A DNA stretch of 64,000 nt from Sinomonas sp. R1AF57. GTDB taxonomy: Bacteria; Actinomycetota; Actinomycetes; Actinomycetales; Micrococcaceae. Shown one piece after another: positions 21,177 to 35,808 of this stretch (position 1 is its first letter; the number at the start of each line of letters is the position of its first letter). Position numbers and translations under genes: made by a program. The DNA lies in contig NZ_CP022463.1 in the NCBI RefSeq assembly GCF_002224485.1, positions 216,376-280,375 of the forward strand, given 5' to 3'. The notes beneath the pieces were generated by a model. It worked only from the letters and a program-made list of their open reading frames with translations. It did not search any database and was not told where the DNA came from.

Positions 21177-21683
21177 CTAGGACAGGACCTGGCGCTTGCT
21201 CGAGATGACCCCGGTGTTGAAGCCCGCGAGGTGCAGGCCGCCGTGGAAGCGGGCGTGCTCGATCTTGACGCAGCGGTCCATCACGACGTTCATGCCTGCC
21301 GCCTCGGCATCGGCCGCGACCTGCTCGTGCCACGAGCCGAGCTGGAGCCAGAGCGTCTTGGCGCCTACAGCTTTGGCCTCCTCGAGGACGCCGGGGATGT
21401 CGTCGTGGCGGCGGAACACCTCGACGAGGTCCGGCGCCTCGGGCAGGTCCGCGAGGGATGGGTAGACCGGCTGGCCGAGGATGGTCTTCAGCGCCGGGTT
21501 GACGAAGTAGACGGTGAACTTCGTGGAGGAGAGCAGGTACGTCGCGACGAAGTAGCTCGCCCGGCTCGGCTTGTCGGACGCTCCGACGATCGCGATGGAC
21601 TTGGTCTCGCGCAGGATCTGCAGGCGCTCCGGGGCGGTCGGGCCGACCCAGGTCCGGTCCGCGGTCTCAACGGTCGCGCTCAC
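21177..21683 (-). CDS. CoA-binding domain protein of the sulfur operon
   Basis: The 168-residue protein carries a CoA-binding Rossmann domain: KSIAIVGASDKPSRASYFVA, KFTVYFVNPALKTILGQPVY, DLVEVFRRHDDIPGVLEEA and GAKTLWLQLGSWHE, then MNVVMDRCVKIEHARFHGG, whose Cys-x5-His segment is conserved in this group. Proteins of this type commonly adjoin O-acetylhomoserine sulfhydrylase genes in actinobacteria, so a role in sulfur transfer or its control is plausible but unproven. The GTG start at 21683 overlaps the stop of the sulfhydrylase gene (GTGA). It is the last gene of the SAM-riboswitch operon. Confidence 0.82.
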   Translation of the reverse strand: MSATVETADRTWVGPTAPERLQILRETKSIAIVGASDKPSRASYFVATYLLSSTKFTVYFVNPALKTILGQPVYPSLADLPEAPDLVEVFRRHDDIPGVLEEAKAVGAKTLWLQLGSWHEQVAADAEAAGMNVVMDRCVKIEHARFHGGLHLAGFNTGVISSKRQVLS

Positions 21684-23047
21684 TTGGCGCCCCCTTTCAG
21701 CGGCAGGGAGCACGCCTCGCCGTCGTACGTCGGTGCAGCGAACTCCTCCTCAAGCTCGTCCACTTCCTGGCTGGCAGCCAGCGCCTGGTCGAGGTCCCAG
21801 ATGATGTCCTCGACGTCCTCGAGCCCCACGGAGAAGCGGATGAGGTCCCCGGGCACGCCCGCCGCGACGAGCTGCTCGGCGGAGAGCTGCTGGTGCGTGG
21901 TCGAGGCCGGGTGCAGCACGAGCGTGCGGGCGTCGCCGATGTTGGCCAGGTGCGACGCGAGCTGGAGGGCCTCGATGAAGCGGGCTCCGGCCTCGCGGCC
22001 GCCCTTCACGCCGAAGCTGAACACGCTCCCGACGCCGAGCGGCAGGAGGCCCTGGGCGAACTCGTGCTGCGGGTGCGAGGGCAGGCCTGCGTAGTTCACG
22101 TAGGTCACGCGCGGATCGGCCTCGAGCCACTCGGCGACCGCCTTCGCGTTGGCGAGGTGCGCGTCCATGCGCTGCGGGAGCGTCTCGACGCCCTGCAGGA
22201 GCTGGAACGCGGACTGCGGCGACAGGGACGGGCCGATGTCGCGCAGCTGCTCGGAGCGCAGCTTCATGAGGAAGCCGTACTCGCCGAAGTTGCCCCACCA
22301 CGTGACGTTGCCGTAGCTCGGCACCGGCTCGGTCATCGAGGGGAACTTGCCGTTGGCCCAGTTGAACGTCCCGGACTCCACGACGACGCCGCCGAGGGTC
22401 GTGCCGTGGCCGCCGAGGAATTTCGTGGCCGAATGGATCACGATGTCCGCGCCGTGCTCGATCGGCCGGAAGATGTACGGCGGCGTCAGCGTGGAGTCCA
22501 CCACGAGCGGGATGCCGTGCTCGTGGGCGACGGCGGCCAGGCCGGCGACGTCGGCGATGTCGCCCGAGGGGTTGGCCACCACCTCGGTGTAGACGGCCTT
22601 CGTGTTCTCGCGCAGGGCGGCCTTGAACGCGGCCGGGTCCGTCGAGTCCACGAACGTGGTCTCGACCCCGAAGCGGCGCAGGGTCACGTCGAGCTGCGTG
22701 ATCGTGCCGCCGTAGAGCTTGGAGGAGGCGACGATGTGGTCCCCGGCCTGGGTCAGCGCGGCGAACGTGATGAACTCCGCGGCCATGCCCGAGCTCGTCG
22801 CGACCGCCCCGAGGCCGCCTTCCAGGGACGCGATGCGCTCCTCGAACGCCGCGACCGTGGGGTTGCCGATGCGCGAGTAGATGTTGCCGTACTTCTGCAG
22901 CGCGAAGAGGTTCGCGGCGTCGTCCGAGTCCTTGAACACGAACGAGGTGGACTGGTAGATCGGAACGGCCCGGGCGCCGTGCTCGGCGTCGGGCGTGCCG
23001 CCGGCGTGCAGGGCCCGGGTGCGGAACCCGAACTGGCGCTCGGCCAT
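21680..23047 (-). CDS. metY: O-acetylhomoserine sulfhydrylase
   Basis: The 455-residue PLP enzyme belongs to the Cys/Met metabolism family: FGFRTRALHAGGTPD at the start, YSRIGNPTVAAFEERIASLEGG, the active-site lysine in IVIHSATKFLGGHGTTLGG, and PSYGNVTWWGNFGEYGF typical of the MetY rather than the MetB branch. It joins sulfide (or a reduced sulfur species) to O-acetylhomoserine to give homocysteine and acetate. It starts at the stop of sfnG (TGATG overlap) and is under the same SAM-I riboswitch, fitting end-product control by SAM. Confidence 0.93.
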   Translation of the reverse strand: MAERQFGFRTRALHAGGTPDAEHGARAVPIYQSTSFVFKDSDDAANLFALQKYGNIYSRIGNPTVAAFEERIASLEGGLGAVATSSGMAAEFITFAALTQAGDHIVASSKLYGGTITQLDVTLRRFGVETTFVDSTDPAAFKAALRENTKAVYTEVVANPSGDIADVAGLAAVAHEHGIPLVVDSTLTPPYIFRPIEHGADIVIHSATKFLGGHGTTLGGVVVESGTFNWANGKFPSMTEPVPSYGNVTWWGNFGEYGFLMKLRSEQLRDIGPSLSPQSAFQLLQGVETLPQRMDAHLANAKAVAEWLEADPRVTYVNYAGLPSHPQHEFAQGLLPLGVGSVFSFGVKGGREAGARFIEALQLASHLANIGDARTLVLHPASTTHQQLSAEQLVAAGVPGDLIRFSVGLEDVEDIIWDLDQALAASQEVDELEEEFAAPTYDGEACSLPLKGGAK

Positions 23048-24231
23048 CAGGCGTTCGCCCCGGCAGCCTGGAAGCCGGTCACCGGCAGCAGGTCGGTGCG
23101 CAGCTCCGTGCCGTTCCTCCGGGCCAGGTCCGCCTCGAGCTCGCGGACGATCGGGAGGACGTCGCGGCCGAACGCCTCGACCTCCTCCTGGAAGTGCAGG
23201 TAGCCCGTGAGGAACAGGTTCACGCCGATCTTCTTGTACTCGACGATGCGCGCGGCGATCTGCTCCGGGGTGCCGATGAGCTTGGTGCGGAAGCCGTCGT
23301 TGTACTGGACGAGGTCCTCGAAGGTCGAGTCCTCCCACATGCCCTTGCCGTCCTTCGTGGACTGGCCGGCCTCCTTGACGGCGGCGGCGAAGCCCTCGAC
23401 GGCCGGCTTGTGCGCCTTGGCGATGATCTCGCGCAGGGTGTCCTGGGCCTCCTTCTCCGTGTCGCGGGCGATCACGAAGCCGTTGAGGCCGAAACGCGGG
23501 GCGGCGGGGGCCGTGCGGCCAGTCTGGGCGGCGGCCAGGACGCCGCGGATGTTGTCCTTGAACGGCTCGAGGTCGCGGCCGTTGGAGAAGTACCAGTCCG
23601 CGGTGCGCCCCGCGGCGGCCTGCGCGGCCGTCGAGTTGCCGCCGAAGAAGATCTCCGGGTGCGCGCGGCCGGGGATGTCCAGCGGGGCCGGGTTCAGCGT
23701 GAAGTCGGTGATGTTGTAGTACTTCCCGGACTGCGAGTAGCCCTGCTGCGTCCACAGTCCGCGGAGGACGTTGATGAACTCCTCGGTGCGCACGTAGCGC
23801 TCGTCGTGCTCGAGCCACGGCAGGCCGAAGTTCACGAACTCGTCCTTGAGCCAGCCGGAGACGATGTTCACGGCGGCCCGGCCGCCGGAGAGGTGGTCCG
23901 CGGTGATGATGAACTTCGCGAGCACGCCCGGGTGCCACATGCCGGGGTGCACGGCGGAGATGACCTTGAGCCGTTCGGTCGCGCCCAGGAGGGCGAGGCT
24001 GAACGACGTCGCCTCGTGCTGCTTGTCCGCGCCGTAGCTCGCGGCGTAGCGGGTCTGGGTCAGGGCGTACTCGAACCCGGAGTCCTCCGCGATGCGGGCG
24101 AGCTTCTTGTTGTACTCGAACTCCCAGTTGGTGCGCTGCTCGATGGTCGAGACGACGAGGCCGCCCGAGACGTTGGGCACCCAGTACGCGAACTTCAGCG
24201 GGGTCTCGAAGTCGATGCGGTGGTCGGTCAT
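23047..24231 (-). CDS. sfnG: Dimethylsulfone-type FMNH2-dependent monooxygenase
   Basis: The 394-residue protein is a bacterial luciferase-like (LLM) flavin monooxygenase. It begins PLKFAYWVPNVSGGLVVS and includes LTQTRYAASYGADKQHEATS, HPGMWHPGVLAKFIITADHL, AAVNIVSGWLKDEFVNFG and PEIFFGGNSTAAQAAAGRTA, all characteristic of SfnG. SfnG uses reduced FMN and oxygen to turn dimethylsulfone into methanesulfinate. AAGGAG lies 6 bases before the ATG at 24231. It leads the riboswitch-controlled operon with metY. The flavin reductase at 35809 is a candidate source of FMNH2. Confidence 0.88.
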   Translation of the reverse strand: MTDHRIDFETPLKFAYWVPNVSGGLVVSTIEQRTNWEFEYNKKLARIAEDSGFEYALTQTRYAASYGADKQHEATSFSLALLGATERLKVISAVHPGMWHPGVLAKFIITADHLSGGRAAVNIVSGWLKDEFVNFGLPWLEHDERYVRTEEFINVLRGLWTQQGYSQSGKYYNITDFTLNPAPLDIPGRAHPEIFFGGNSTAAQAAAGRTADWYFSNGRDLEPFKDNIRGVLAAAQTGRTAPAAPRFGLNGFVIARDTEKEAQDTLREIIAKAHKPAVEGFAAAVKEAGQSTKDGKGMWEDSTFEDLVQYNDGFRTKLIGTPEQIAARIVEYKKIGVNLFLTGYLHFQEEVEAFGRDVLPIVRELEADLARRNGTELRTDLLPVTGFQAAGANA

Positions 24232-24288
24232 GCTGCGCTCCTTGGAACTCGGGCGCGACGTGCAGCGCAGGATGTGGCCTGATCGCTC

Positions 24289-24383
24289 ACCATCGCTTCT
24301 GGCAGTAGCACCTTTGGCTCCGTCTGCGGCGCCAGGGTTGCTGCGGCGTCACAGATCCAGATCTCTCGGCCGCTCGGGATGGT
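24289..24383 (-). ncRNA. SAM-I (S-box) riboswitch upstream of sfnG
   Basis: On the minus strand the closing helix P1 is formed by ACCATC (24383-24378) and GATGGT (24294-24289). Between them lie CGGCCGAGAGATCTGG, then GACGCCGCAGCAACC, and GGTGCTACTGCCAG, the conserved S-box core. Downstream, CTGCGCT (24270-24264) can pair with AGCGCAG (24239-24233), which directly follows the AAGGAG ribosome site of sfnG, so the expression platform probably acts by hiding the start region. SAM binding should switch the operon off. Confidence 0.88.
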
Positions 24384-24390
24384 CCTTCCG

Positions 24391-30491: not shown

Positions 30492-32578
<2,087 letters not shown>

Positions 32579-32582
<4 letters not shown>

Positions 32583-33442
32583 GCCCACCGGCGCACCGCC
32601 CATCTCTCGGCGACGCCCAGCAGGGCGTCGGTGATCTTGCCGATGACTGCCAGCAGCACGATGGCCAGGAGCAGCCGGTCGGTCCGTCCGTTGTTCTGCG
32701 AGTCCGTCAGGAGGAAGCCCAGGCCCATCGAGGACGCAATGAGCTCCGCCGCGACGAGGAACAGCCACGCCTGCGCGAGCGCTAGCCGCAGGCCCGAGAA
32801 GATCGCGGGCACGACGGCCGGCAGCTGGATCGTGGTCAGCAGCTGCAGGCCGGTGAGCCCGAACGCCCGCCCGGCCTCGACCAGCTTCCGGTCCACGTGG
32901 CGCAGCGCGAGGTACACCGTGGTGAACACCGGGAAGAACGCGCCGATCACGATCAGCGTGACCTTCGAGTTCTCCCCGATCTTGAGCCACAGGATCAGCA
33001 GCGGCACCCACGCGAGCGACGGGACCGCGCGCAGCGCCCCGATCGTCGGCGAGAGGAGCCGGTCCGCCCACTGCGACAGCCCCACGAGCGAGCCGAACGC
33101 GAGCCCCAGCGCCCCGCCGATCACGAACCCGAGCAGGACGCGCTGCGTCGAGATGCCCACGTGCTGCCACAGCTCCCCGCGGCCCGCGAGCTCCGCCCCC
33201 GCAGCGAGCACCGCACCCGGCGCCGGCAGCTGGACGGCGCTGAACAGCCCCGCCGAGGTGGACCACTGCCACAGCGCGAGCAGGACCAGGGGCACGACGG
33301 CGCCGATCGCCGCGCGCTTGAGCCCGCTGGCCGCGTCGCCCCGGGAACCACGGCGCAGGGTGCCGCGCACGACGGCGGGCGCCTCCGCGGCGTCGTGCGT
33401 CGCCTCAGCCTCGGGCTGGCTCCGGGAGGAGGCGGTGCTCAC
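32579..33442 (-). CDS. ssuC: Aliphatic sulfonate ABC transporter permease
   Basis: The 287-residue membrane protein has about six helices and the binding-protein-dependent permease signature EAGRAFGLTGLQLLTTIQLPAV, with FGSLVGLSQWADRLLSPTIG and VPSLAWVPLLILWLKIGENS, as in SsuC/TauC proteins. The first 35 residues are a hydrophilic extension rich in Glu, Ala and Arg. The GTG at 33442 overlaps the stop of the binding-protein gene. Together with SsuA and SsuB it forms an importer for sulfonates or similar sulfur compounds. Confidence 0.88.
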
Positions 33443-34494
33443 TTGGCTGCCTTGGACGCGAAGCTCGGCTCGAGGAGCGAGGCGAGAGCCGCATCGATCT
33501 TGTCCTGGCCGGAGACGTCCCCGGAGGCGACGAAGATCGGGCCGACCTTCTTCAGCACCGCCAGCTGCGTCTCGCCCGGGACCGGGTTGATGGCCAGCCG
33601 GGTGCGCTCCTTGATGACCTTCCCGGCCACCGCATCGGAGATGTTGGCCGCCTTGGCGAGGATCGAGGTGGTCTCCTCGAGGTTCGCCGCAGCCCAGCCG
33701 CGGGCCTTCTCGTAGGTGTCCACGACCGTCTGCGCCTGCTCCGGCCGCTCCTTGAGGAAGGACTCGGTGGCGTTGAGGAAGCCGTAGGTGTTGAAGTCGA
33801 TGTTGCGGTAGAGCAGCTTCGCGCCGTTCTGCTCGGCGGCCGCCATGATCGGGTCGAGGCCGCTCCACGCCTCGACGGAGCCGTTCTCGAGGGCCGTGCG
33901 GCCGTCCGCGTGCTGGAGGTTCTGGACCGTGACGTCGGCCTGCTTGAGCCCGTTGGCCTCGAGGGCCTGGAGGAGGAAGAAGTAGGGGTCCGTGCCCTTG
34001 GTCGCGGCGACCTGCTTGCCCCTGAGGTCCGCGACGGAGGCGATCTTCGAGTCCTTGCCGACCACGAGCGCGGCCCATTCGGGCTGGGAGTAGAGGCTGA
34101 TCGCCTTGATCGGCGAGCCGTTCGCGCGGGCCAGGAGCGCCGCGGAGCCGGCGGTGGATCCGACGTCGATCGCCCCGGCGCGCAGGGCCTCGTTGGCCTT
34201 GTTCGATCCGGCGGACTGGACCCAGTTCACGCCCACGCCCGAGGGCTTGAGGGCCTCCTCGAGCCAGCCCTTCTCCTTGATGACGATGGACAGCGGGTTG
34301 TAGGTGGCCCAGTCGATGTTCAGCGTCCCGGCCGCCTTCGCCGCGGGCGCCGAGCCGCCGGAGCCTTCGCCGGCGCACGCGCTCAGGCCCAGGGCGGCGG
34401 CGCCGAGGCCGAGGGCGAGGAAGGAGCGGCGGGACGCGGCGGTGCGGGACGCAGCGGTGCGGGCGGCGGTGCGGGACTGGTTCAGGGCAGGCAT
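33439..34494 (-). CDS. ssuA: Aliphatic sulfonate-binding lipoprotein of ABC transporter
   Basis: The 351-residue solute-binding protein begins with a twin-arginine motif (SRRSFL) inside its signal peptide and a lipobox LSAC, so it is probably a Tat-exported lipoprotein. The mature part (NIDWATYNPLSIVIKEKGWL, VNWVQSAGSNKANEALRAGA, DPYFFLLQALEANGLKQADV) fits the NMT1/SsuA family. AGAGG lies 6 bases before the ATG at 34494, which is preferred to an ATG 15 bases upstream. The N terminus contains short direct repeats (RTAAS) that stretch the region before the Tat motif. Ligand type is inferred from the operon and the SAM riboswitch. Confidence 0.88.
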   Translation of the reverse strand: MPALNQSRTAARTAASRTAASRRSFLALGLGAAALGLSACAGEGSGGSAPAAKAAGTLNIDWATYNPLSIVIKEKGWLEEALKPSGVGVNWVQSAGSNKANEALRAGAIDVGSTAGSAALLARANGSPIKAISLYSQPEWAALVVGKDSKIASVADLRGKQVAATKGTDPYFFLLQALEANGLKQADVTVQNLQHADGRTALENGSVEAWSGLDPIMAAAEQNGAKLLYRNIDFNTYGFLNATESFLKERPEQAQTVVDTYEKARGWAAANLEETTSILAKAANISDAVAGKVIKERTRLAINPVPGETQLAVLKKVGPIFVASGDVSGQDKIDAALASLLEPSFASKAAK

Positions 34495-34544
34495 GGGGAA
34501 CCTCTTCATGCGGGTGCGGGTGCGGGTGGACGTGCGGGGGAGGG

Positions 34545-35411
34545 TCAGTGGTGGTGCGTGTCCACGCCGAGCGTGGACAGGAGGGTGCCGCGGAGGCGGG
34601 CGAGTTCGGCGTCGGCGCGGTCGCGCGGGCGCTCGCCCGGGACGTCGAGGACGTGCTGGATCGTCGCGCCGGGCACGCCGTCCTCGGAGCCGAGCACCAC
34701 CACGCGGTCGGCGAGCTGGAGCGCCTCGTCGACGTCGTGGGTCACGAGCAGGACCGTGGTGGGCTCGGCCTCGTGGACGTGCAGGAGGAGGTCCTGCATC
34801 TTCAGCCGGGTGAGCGCATCGAGGGCGCCGAACGGCTCGTCCAGGAGCAGCACGCCGGGGCGCCGGGCCAGGGCACGGGCCAGCGAGGCCCGCTGGGCCA
34901 TGCCGCCGGAGATCTCGCCCGGGCGGTACGCCGCGCAGTGGGTCAGGCCCACGAGGGACAGGAGGCGGTCGACGGCGGCGCGCCCCTCGCGCTTCTCGGT
35001 CCCCTTGGGCAGGCCCAGGGCCACATTGTCGTGCACGCTCAGCCAGGGCAGGAGCCGGGGCTCCTGGAAGCCGACCGCGCACAGGGGCGAGATGCCGCTG
35101 CTCGGCTGGCCGCCCACGAGCAGTTCCCCGGCCGCGGGCGCGTCGAGCCCGGCGGCGATGCGCAGCAGCGTGGACTTTCCCGAGCCGCTCGGGCCCAGCA
35201 GGGCCACGATCTCACCCGGGGCGAGCGCGAGGTCGACGTCGCGCAGGACGTAAGTCACGCCGTCGTGCGCGCCCGTCCCGGTGTCCCGGCCGCGGCGGGC
35301 GGCGAAGGACTGGGCGACGCCGCGGAACTCCAGCGAGGCGGCGCGGGGCGCGGCGAGGGCGGAACCGCGGTGGGTGGCCTCGGAAGTCGGCTGGGCCAGG
35401 GCAGAAGGCAT
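34545..35411 (-). CDS. ssuB: Aliphatic sulfonate ABC transporter ATPase
   Basis: The 288-residue ATPase has Walker A in LLGPSGSGKSTLLRIAAGL, a Q-loop in VGFQEPRLLPWLSV, the signature ISGGMAQRASLARALARRPG, Walker B LLLDEPFGALDALT and the H-loop VTHDVDEA, matching SsuB/TauB. Three ATGs lie close together; that at 35411 was chosen because GGAG (35421-35418) is 6 bases upstream. That GGAG overlaps the 3' strand of the riboswitch P1 helix. It is the first gene of ssuB-ssuA-ssuC-acs. An SsuD monooxygenase gene is not present in the operon. Confidence 0.9.
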   Translation of the reverse strand: MPSALAQPTSEATHRGSALAAPRAASLEFRGVAQSFAARRGRDTGTGAHDGVTYVLRDVDLALAPGEIVALLGPSGSGKSTLLRIAAGLDAPAAGELLVGGQPSSGISPLCAVGFQEPRLLPWLSVHDNVALGLPKGTEKREGRAAVDRLLSLVGLTHCAAYRPGEISGGMAQRASLARALARRPGVLLLDEPFGALDALTRLKMQDLLLHVHEAEPTTVLLVTHDVDEALQLADRVVVLGSEDGVPGATIQHVLDVPGERPRDRADAELARLRGTLLSTLGVDTHHH

Positions 35412-35419
35412 GTGCATCT

Positions 35420-35511
35420 CCATCGGTTCTGGCGGTAGCACCTGTGGCCCCTGCGGGGGCCATGGTTGCTGCGGCGTCACGGAGCCAGATCTCTCGGCCG
35501 CTCGGGATGGT
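35420..35511 (-). ncRNA. SAM-I (S-box) riboswitch upstream of ssuB
   Basis: The minus-strand sequence repeats the core found before sfnG: CGGCCGAGAGATCTGG, GACGCCGCAGCAACC, GGTGCTACCGCCAG. P1 pairs CCATC (35510-35506) with GATGG (35424-35420). The last bases of P1 are part of the GGAG that serves ssuB, so SAM-stabilised P1 should directly block translation; no separate terminator hairpin is seen between aptamer and start codon. Confidence 0.88.
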
Positions 35512-35615
35512 CACTTCACATTTCACGTAAAGAACGCCCGCCGTGCAAAACCAGACGTCTGGGTGCGCGTAACAAATGACAATGTGTCCGCGTGTTTCCA
35601 CCGCTCGCGGATACG

Positions 35616-35646
35616 TTGGACGACCGGTGGATTCCTTCCGTACTGT
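35616..35646 (+). promoter_or_regulatory. Promoter of the SAM-IV/flavin reductase unit
   Basis: TTGGAC at 35616-35621 and TACTGT at 35641-35646 are 19 bp apart; the predicted start falls about 2 bases before the first base of the riboswitch. The spacing is longer than ideal. The remainder of 35512-35654 holds no gene; it is AT-richer than its surroundings and should also contain the leftward ssu promoter, which I could not pin down. Confidence 0.5.
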
Positions 35647-35654
35647 GAAGGACA

Positions 35655-35756
35655 GGATCAAGAGTCCCGGCGCGAAGCTCTGGCTGGCCGGGCGGCAACC
35701 CTCTCCCGTAGTGGGGTGCCCCAGATGAAGATCCGGCCGCGGTGGCCATCCGCGGC
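35655..35756 (+). ncRNA. SAM-IV riboswitch upstream of the flavin reductase
   Basis: P1 is GGATC (35655-35659) with GATCC (35730-35734). Inside lie AAGAGTCCCGGC, GGCCGGGCGGCAACCCTC, and GTGGGGTGCCCCAGATGAAG, which match the SAM-IV consensus of actinobacteria rather than SAM-I. After P1, GGCCGCGG and CCGCGGC (to 35756) form the extra 3' hairpin or pseudoknot region expected of this class. It precedes the start codon of the reductase by about 50 nt and should repress it at high SAM. Confidence 0.85.
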
Positions 35757-35808
35757 AAGTACGGCGCCTGCGAACCGTGGGCGTCCGGCCGACTAGCTGG
35801 AGGAGCCC

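Follow-up and report, generated by a model that had tools for sequence, protein, structure and literature searches.

Why should the two divergent transcripts of one organosulfur-scavenging locus begin with SAM riboswitches of different classes? The question arises in a window of 64,000 bp (the whole stretch of DNA analysed) from the soil bacterium Sinomonas sp. R1AF57 (Micrococcaceae). A sequence-only reading had placed there a SAM-I element on the minus strand and a SAM-IV element on the plus strand, pointing away from each other, and had ascribed to them the control of two halves of one pathway through different RNA folds. The whole window was scanned by cmscan against Rfam 15 (gathering cut-offs of 38 bits for RF00634 and 44.4 bits for RF00162). 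Exactly three matches were found, all of them full-length and above the cut-off:

35656–35767, plus strand: SAM-IV aptamer (RF00634), 94.6 bits against a gathering cut-off of 38, model positions 1–116
35513–35417, minus strand: SAM-I aptamer (RF00162) without P4, 52.7 bits against a gathering cut-off of 44.4
24385–24287, minus strand: second SAM-I aptamer (RF00162), also without P4, upstream of sfnG, 50.2 bits

Both class assignments were borne out by these scores, and the plus-strand element neither scored as SAM-I nor fell below the threshold. The elements are divergent on the strands proposed and are separated by 142 nt (35514–35655), the distance having been given as 143 bp. The interval proposed for the pair, 35420–35756, was right to within a few bases, being slightly short at each end (35417 and 35767 were found). 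A permissive Rfam scan of the pair locus gave, beyond the known elements, chance matches only. The SAM-I/IV variant (RF01725) was rejected as an identity, as it had no match anywhere in the genome at E ≤ 1. The genome, a single contig of 3.94 Mb, contains five SAM-IV and two SAM-I elements. Both SAM-I elements are located in this sulfur-scavenging stretch; the remaining four SAM-IV precede genes for a SufS-like class-V aminotransferase, an O-acetylhomoserine sulfhydrylase, a DUF1737 protein and an MFS transporter. By our own arithmetic from these numbers, the chance expectation of a divergent pair this close is about 2e-4.

The genes downstream of the three elements were assigned by family matches:

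34545–35411, minus strand: ssuB-type ABC transporter ATP-binding protein; nitrate/aliphatic sulfonate ATPase families TIGR01184 and PRK11247, below their cut-offs
33439–34530, minus strand: ssuA, aliphatic sulfonate substrate-binding protein; TIGR01728, 221 bits, cut-off 163.5
32579–33412, minus strand: ssuC, permease; PRK11365 (SsuC), E = 3.9e-58, below cut-off
30492–32576, minus strand: acs, acetate–CoA ligase family; TIGR02188, 760 bits, cut-off 725; PF00501, PF16177
35809–36291, plus strand: flavin reductase-like protein of 160 aa behind SAM-IV; PF01613 (Flavin_Reduct), E = 1.2e-37
23047–24231, minus strand: sfnG, dimethylsulfone monooxygenase; TIGR04021, 607 bits, cut-off 383
21680–23062, minus strand: metY, O-acetylhomoserine sulfhydrylase; TIGR01326, 594 bits, cut-off 495

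The matches back the genes named earlier for each element, including sfnG–metY behind the second SAM-I copy, which had been placed at 24289. A gene for an SfnB-like protein is divergent from sfnG–metY. In SAM-controlled ssu or sulfur loci the acetate–CoA ligase-type gene is found again in Micrococcaceae of many genera, and some copies have a SAM-I of their own immediately before them. A separate gene for an NADPH-dependent FMN reductase (PF03358, 29582–30382), which has no riboswitch match, lies just past acs on the other strand.

The plus-strand aptamer is composed of P1, P2 with the pseudoknot PK-1 (UCUGG:CCAGA), P3, P5 (GCCGCGG/CCGCGGC) and PK-2 (CCGUA:UACGG). As read from the sequence, it has the features of the SAM-IV class: P4 is absent, the P5 hairpin is present, and PK-2 connects the loop of P3 with the 3' tail. 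PK-2 is perfect in 24 of 45 SAM-IV sequences, above all 500 shuffles (mean 12.8, maximum 20). The element matches RF00634 over its full length, P5 and PK-2 included, and the aptamer shows no difference from that family; what is unusual is the context, with a flavin reductase as the target and a SAM-I element divergent from it.

The minus-strand aptamer contains P1 (CCAUC/GAUGG), P2 with its kink-turn (G19A20/G36A37), the L2-J3/4 pseudoknot UCUGG:CCAGA, and P3. The Shine–Dalgarno regions of the pair and the spacer are located as follows:

35418–35424, minus strand: 3' strand of P1, GAUGGAG, including the Shine–Dalgarno sequence GGAG (35421–35418)
35799–35805, plus strand: Shine–Dalgarno sequence GGAGGAG of the flavin reductase gene
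35514–35655, no strand assigned: spacer between the aptamers, with a promoter-like TGGACG-N18-TANNGT block and the block GTAACAAATGACAATG (35569–35584)

The AUG of ssuB (35411–35409, minus strand) is 6 nt beyond the GGAG. The same geometry is seen in all nine Sinomonas ssuB/acs copies, with the start codon 6–8 nt past GGAG, and, with the start codon 3–13 nt on, in 29 of 67 Micrococcaceae elements. It is found in none of the 12 sfnG copies, where the Shine–Dalgarno sequence lies about 45 nt further downstream, next to a short hairpin (CUGCGCU/AGCGCAG in the copy of this window). Thus the two SAM-I elements of the window differ in platform. A Shine–Dalgarno sequence within the 3' strand of P1, as in the ssuB copy, is already on record for SAM-I of Actinobacteria (Barrick & Breaker 2007; PMC2258182). 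The idea that it alone accounts for the invariance of P1 was dropped, since the sfnG copies keep an identical P1 although their Shine–Dalgarno sequence is elsewhere. On the plus strand, GGAGGAG lies about 30 nt downstream of the SAM-IV aptamer.

A simple scan found no intrinsic terminators, and a consensus scan for promoters and terminators returned nothing. When the three leaders were folded by minimum free energy, their energies did not surpass those of shuffles and the structures had no pseudoknots; this is expected where pseudoknots matter, but lends the elements no support. In an alignment of eight Sinomonas spacers, TGGACG-N18-TANNGT is conserved just before SAM-IV, and its sequence is consistent with a promoter having its start at the SAM-IV aptamer. 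The block GTAACAAANNNCAATG (35569–35584) is shared by most of the Sinomonas that have the pair, and it occurs once in the genome; it may be part of a promoter or an operator. A shared operator upstream of ssuB and sfnG was rejected: the block GTAACAAANNNCAWTG was found in the spacer of the pair only, and there is therefore no regulon.

The identity and anatomy of the aptamers, their conservation, the identity of the genes and the position of the Shine–Dalgarno sequence are most economically read as two independent translational OFF switches for SAM. With plentiful sulfur and high SAM, the ligand would occupy both aptamers. On the minus strand it would stabilise P1 of the P4-less SAM-I and bury the GG of the GGAG beside the ssuB start, so that sulfonate transport (ssuBAC) and acs would be left untranslated; on the plus strand it would stabilise the SAM-IV aptamer, and the flavin reductase would be repressed. 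Judging from its context, the latter would be a partner of sulfur monooxygenases, as the source of reduced flavin for two-component enzymes that are desulfonating or sulfone monooxygenases, SfnG among them. The uptake of organic sulfur and a helper enzyme would probably be shut off together, and a drop in SAM would release both switches. We consider it very likely that each of the divergent transcripts of this organosulfur-scavenging locus carries its own cis-acting riboswitch of the SAM-I/SAM-IV superfamily, that the two lie head to head and work independently, and that SAM turns both OFF.

The flavin reductase might instead serve another flavin monooxygenase, outside sulfur scavenging, its SAM control being incidental. 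PF01613-type reductases take in both FMN and FAD enzymes, and the nearest relatives of this one in a protein search are from Sinomonas (77–91% identity). Its best NCBIfam resemblances, every one below cut-off, are to HpaC/HsaB/FerA-type reductases of aromatic hydroxylases, which fits such a role, as does the existence of the separate FMN_red protein. The SAM control itself, the divergence from ssu genes or acs, and the FMN-dependent monooxygenases found in the same position in relatives speak against it, and we regard it as unlikely. These relatives come from a survey of 30 further Micrococcaceae genera, one genome each, three of which (G016, G019 and G045) have the mixed pair, with SAM-I before ssuB or acs and SAM-IV before an NtaA/DmoA-type FMN-dependent monooxygenase (the G019 protein was matched to PF00296, luciferase-like monooxygenase, only). 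The proposal that the pair drives two halves of one pathway gains support from this placement.

Within Sinomonas, the divergent SAM-I/SAM-IV pair is present in 8 of 15 genomes, with spacers of 129–252 nt, and S. cellulolyticus likewise has it. Seven of the 15 have no SAM-I at this place; in S. gamaensis and S. humi acs is divergent from the flavin reductase but SAM-I has been lost. Some Sinomonas SAM-I copies score under the RF00162 cut-off. Outside the Micrococcaceae one mixed pair was found, before a gene for a SufS-like aminotransferase. Comparable loci in eight genomes of sister genera carry SAM-I on each side, and in one of them (G025) a PF01613 flavin reductase is controlled by SAM-I. 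The arrangement thus recurs, but the class found on a given side varies. At the organosulfur loci of other Micrococcaceae genera (L204–L211), divergent pairs made up of two SAM-I are common, with ssuBAC–acs standing against SfnB-like, SfnG–MetY or other transporters.

The use of two classes could be purposeful if differences in affinity or kinetics allowed the pathway halves to be switched at different SAM levels. This would agree with the recurrence of the mixed pair across four genera of Micrococcaceae and one of another family, and with the retention of SAM-IV before the flavin reductase in all nine Sinomonas loci scanned. It agrees poorly with SAM-I on both sides in sister genera, with the SAM-I-controlled flavin reductase of G025 and with the loss of SAM-I in some Sinomonas; its chances seem to us quite small. 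Since sister genera have SAM-I on both sides and G025 has its flavin reductase under SAM-I, two classes are most likely in use here by an accident of lineage, for historical rather than functional reasons. The earlier emphasis on different RNA folds was overstated. SAM-I and SAM-IV belong to one Rfam clan (CL00012) with the SAM-binding core in common (PMC6890682), and the minus-strand SAM-I lacks P4, a feature that distinguishes SAM-I from SAM-IV. With a shared core, and with SAM-I on either side in relatives, selection of the classes for their different folds is a weak claim.

The P4 helix is listed among the features separating SAM-I from SAM-IV (PMC6890682, PMC7270179). In the minus-strand element the pseudoknot strand and P1 are only 2 nt apart, leaving no P4, and the element was therefore filed as a P4-less SAM-I variant rather than as canonical SAM-I. 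For comparison, 67 distinct Micrococcaceae SAM-I elements were cut at conserved motifs and segment-aligned. P4 is absent from 66 of them, with 2–3 nt from the pseudoknot strand (GCCANN) to the 3' strand of P1; the sole exception (L135; G171, 1501–1611) has a hairpin of 18 nt where P4 would be, possibly a relic or a regain of P4. Almost every sequence forms P1, P2a, P2b and P3, with two-sided changes (94.7% of cells are paired, and double-changed cells number 77 where shuffles give 31), these helices having been drawn by us on the same alignment, so that the slide control is partly built in. For the L2-J3/4 pseudoknot, 2000 shuffles gave maxima of 65 for the inner pair and 59 for the outer; the observed values were 67 and 62 of 67. 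Its outer pairs occur as UC:GA, CC:GG and CU:AG, and such compensatory pair types weigh more than the pairing count, because related sequences may beat shuffles without any structure. In sfnG-type copies (24287–24385 and Sinomonas relatives) the last L2 position is A, not C, and the top pair of P2b is broken. No SAM-IV-type PK-2 was found to join the P3 loop of SAM-I to its 3' flank (18 complementary against a shuffled mean of 22), while the SAM-IV control exceeds its shuffles.

Twenty of the 21 highly conserved SAM-I nucleotides (list in PMC3764141, mapped by us) are kept in the ssuB copy; the single exception is U4, replaced by C with pairing retained. The U of the P1 3' strand (U88) is found as well, A95 U96 being present. 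A degenerate SAM-I that does not bind SAM and is a mere leader with a ribosome binding site is scarcely credible: P4 is missing, the score is barely over the cut-off and some Sinomonas copies fall below it, but the P4-less form is shared by 66 of 67 family elements, its pseudoknot and helices covary, and the ligand-contacting nucleotides are unchanged.

The P4-less element thus shares with RF00162 P1, the kink-turned P2, the L2-J3/4 pseudoknot, P3 and the ligand-contacting nucleotides, and differs in that 2–3 nt replace the P4 hairpin. With SAM-I/IV (RF01725) it has the clan and the SAM-binding core in common, but it retains the kink-turned P2 and the L2 pseudoknot, both missing there. Among other families of the Actinomycetes, some have complete SAM-I including P4 (71–92 bits) and others P4-less elements; our own model R1 also gives low-scoring matches to full SAM-I from other families, and its class-level tally is therefore not a count of P4-less elements.

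Two SAM classes close together in sulfur metabolism are known from tandem SAM-II/SAM-V and SAM-II/SAM-I-IV riboswitches (PMC9481103). Those stand in series on one transcript, whereas here the elements are on opposite strands with one transcript each. In the portion of the literature covered by our search, no description of P4-less SAM-I or of divergent SAM-I/SAM-IV pairs was found; as this coverage is partial, novelty is claimed only at the level of a variant. Each element belongs to a known family or stands close to one. The parts are known and the mixed-class arrangement is recurrent, the less ordinary point being a SAM-I without its class-defining P4 helix. It is conceivable, and we suggest it only tentatively, that SAM-I elements without P4 form a separate structural subclass of the SAM clan, not described before, with a SAM-I core but neither P4 nor P5/PK-2; this subclass would be the norm in Micrococcaceae and sporadic in other Actinomycetes, and its mixed pairs with SAM-IV would tune each strand separately. 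It would then be the most reduced form of the SAM fold. P4 has been treated as a hallmark of SAM-I, and its natural, family-wide loss without a SAM-IV replacement makes it easy to test what in the fold SAM binding and switching depend on. The two-class pair, together with sister species that use one class, forms a comparison set on the evolutionary interchangeability of riboswitch classes.
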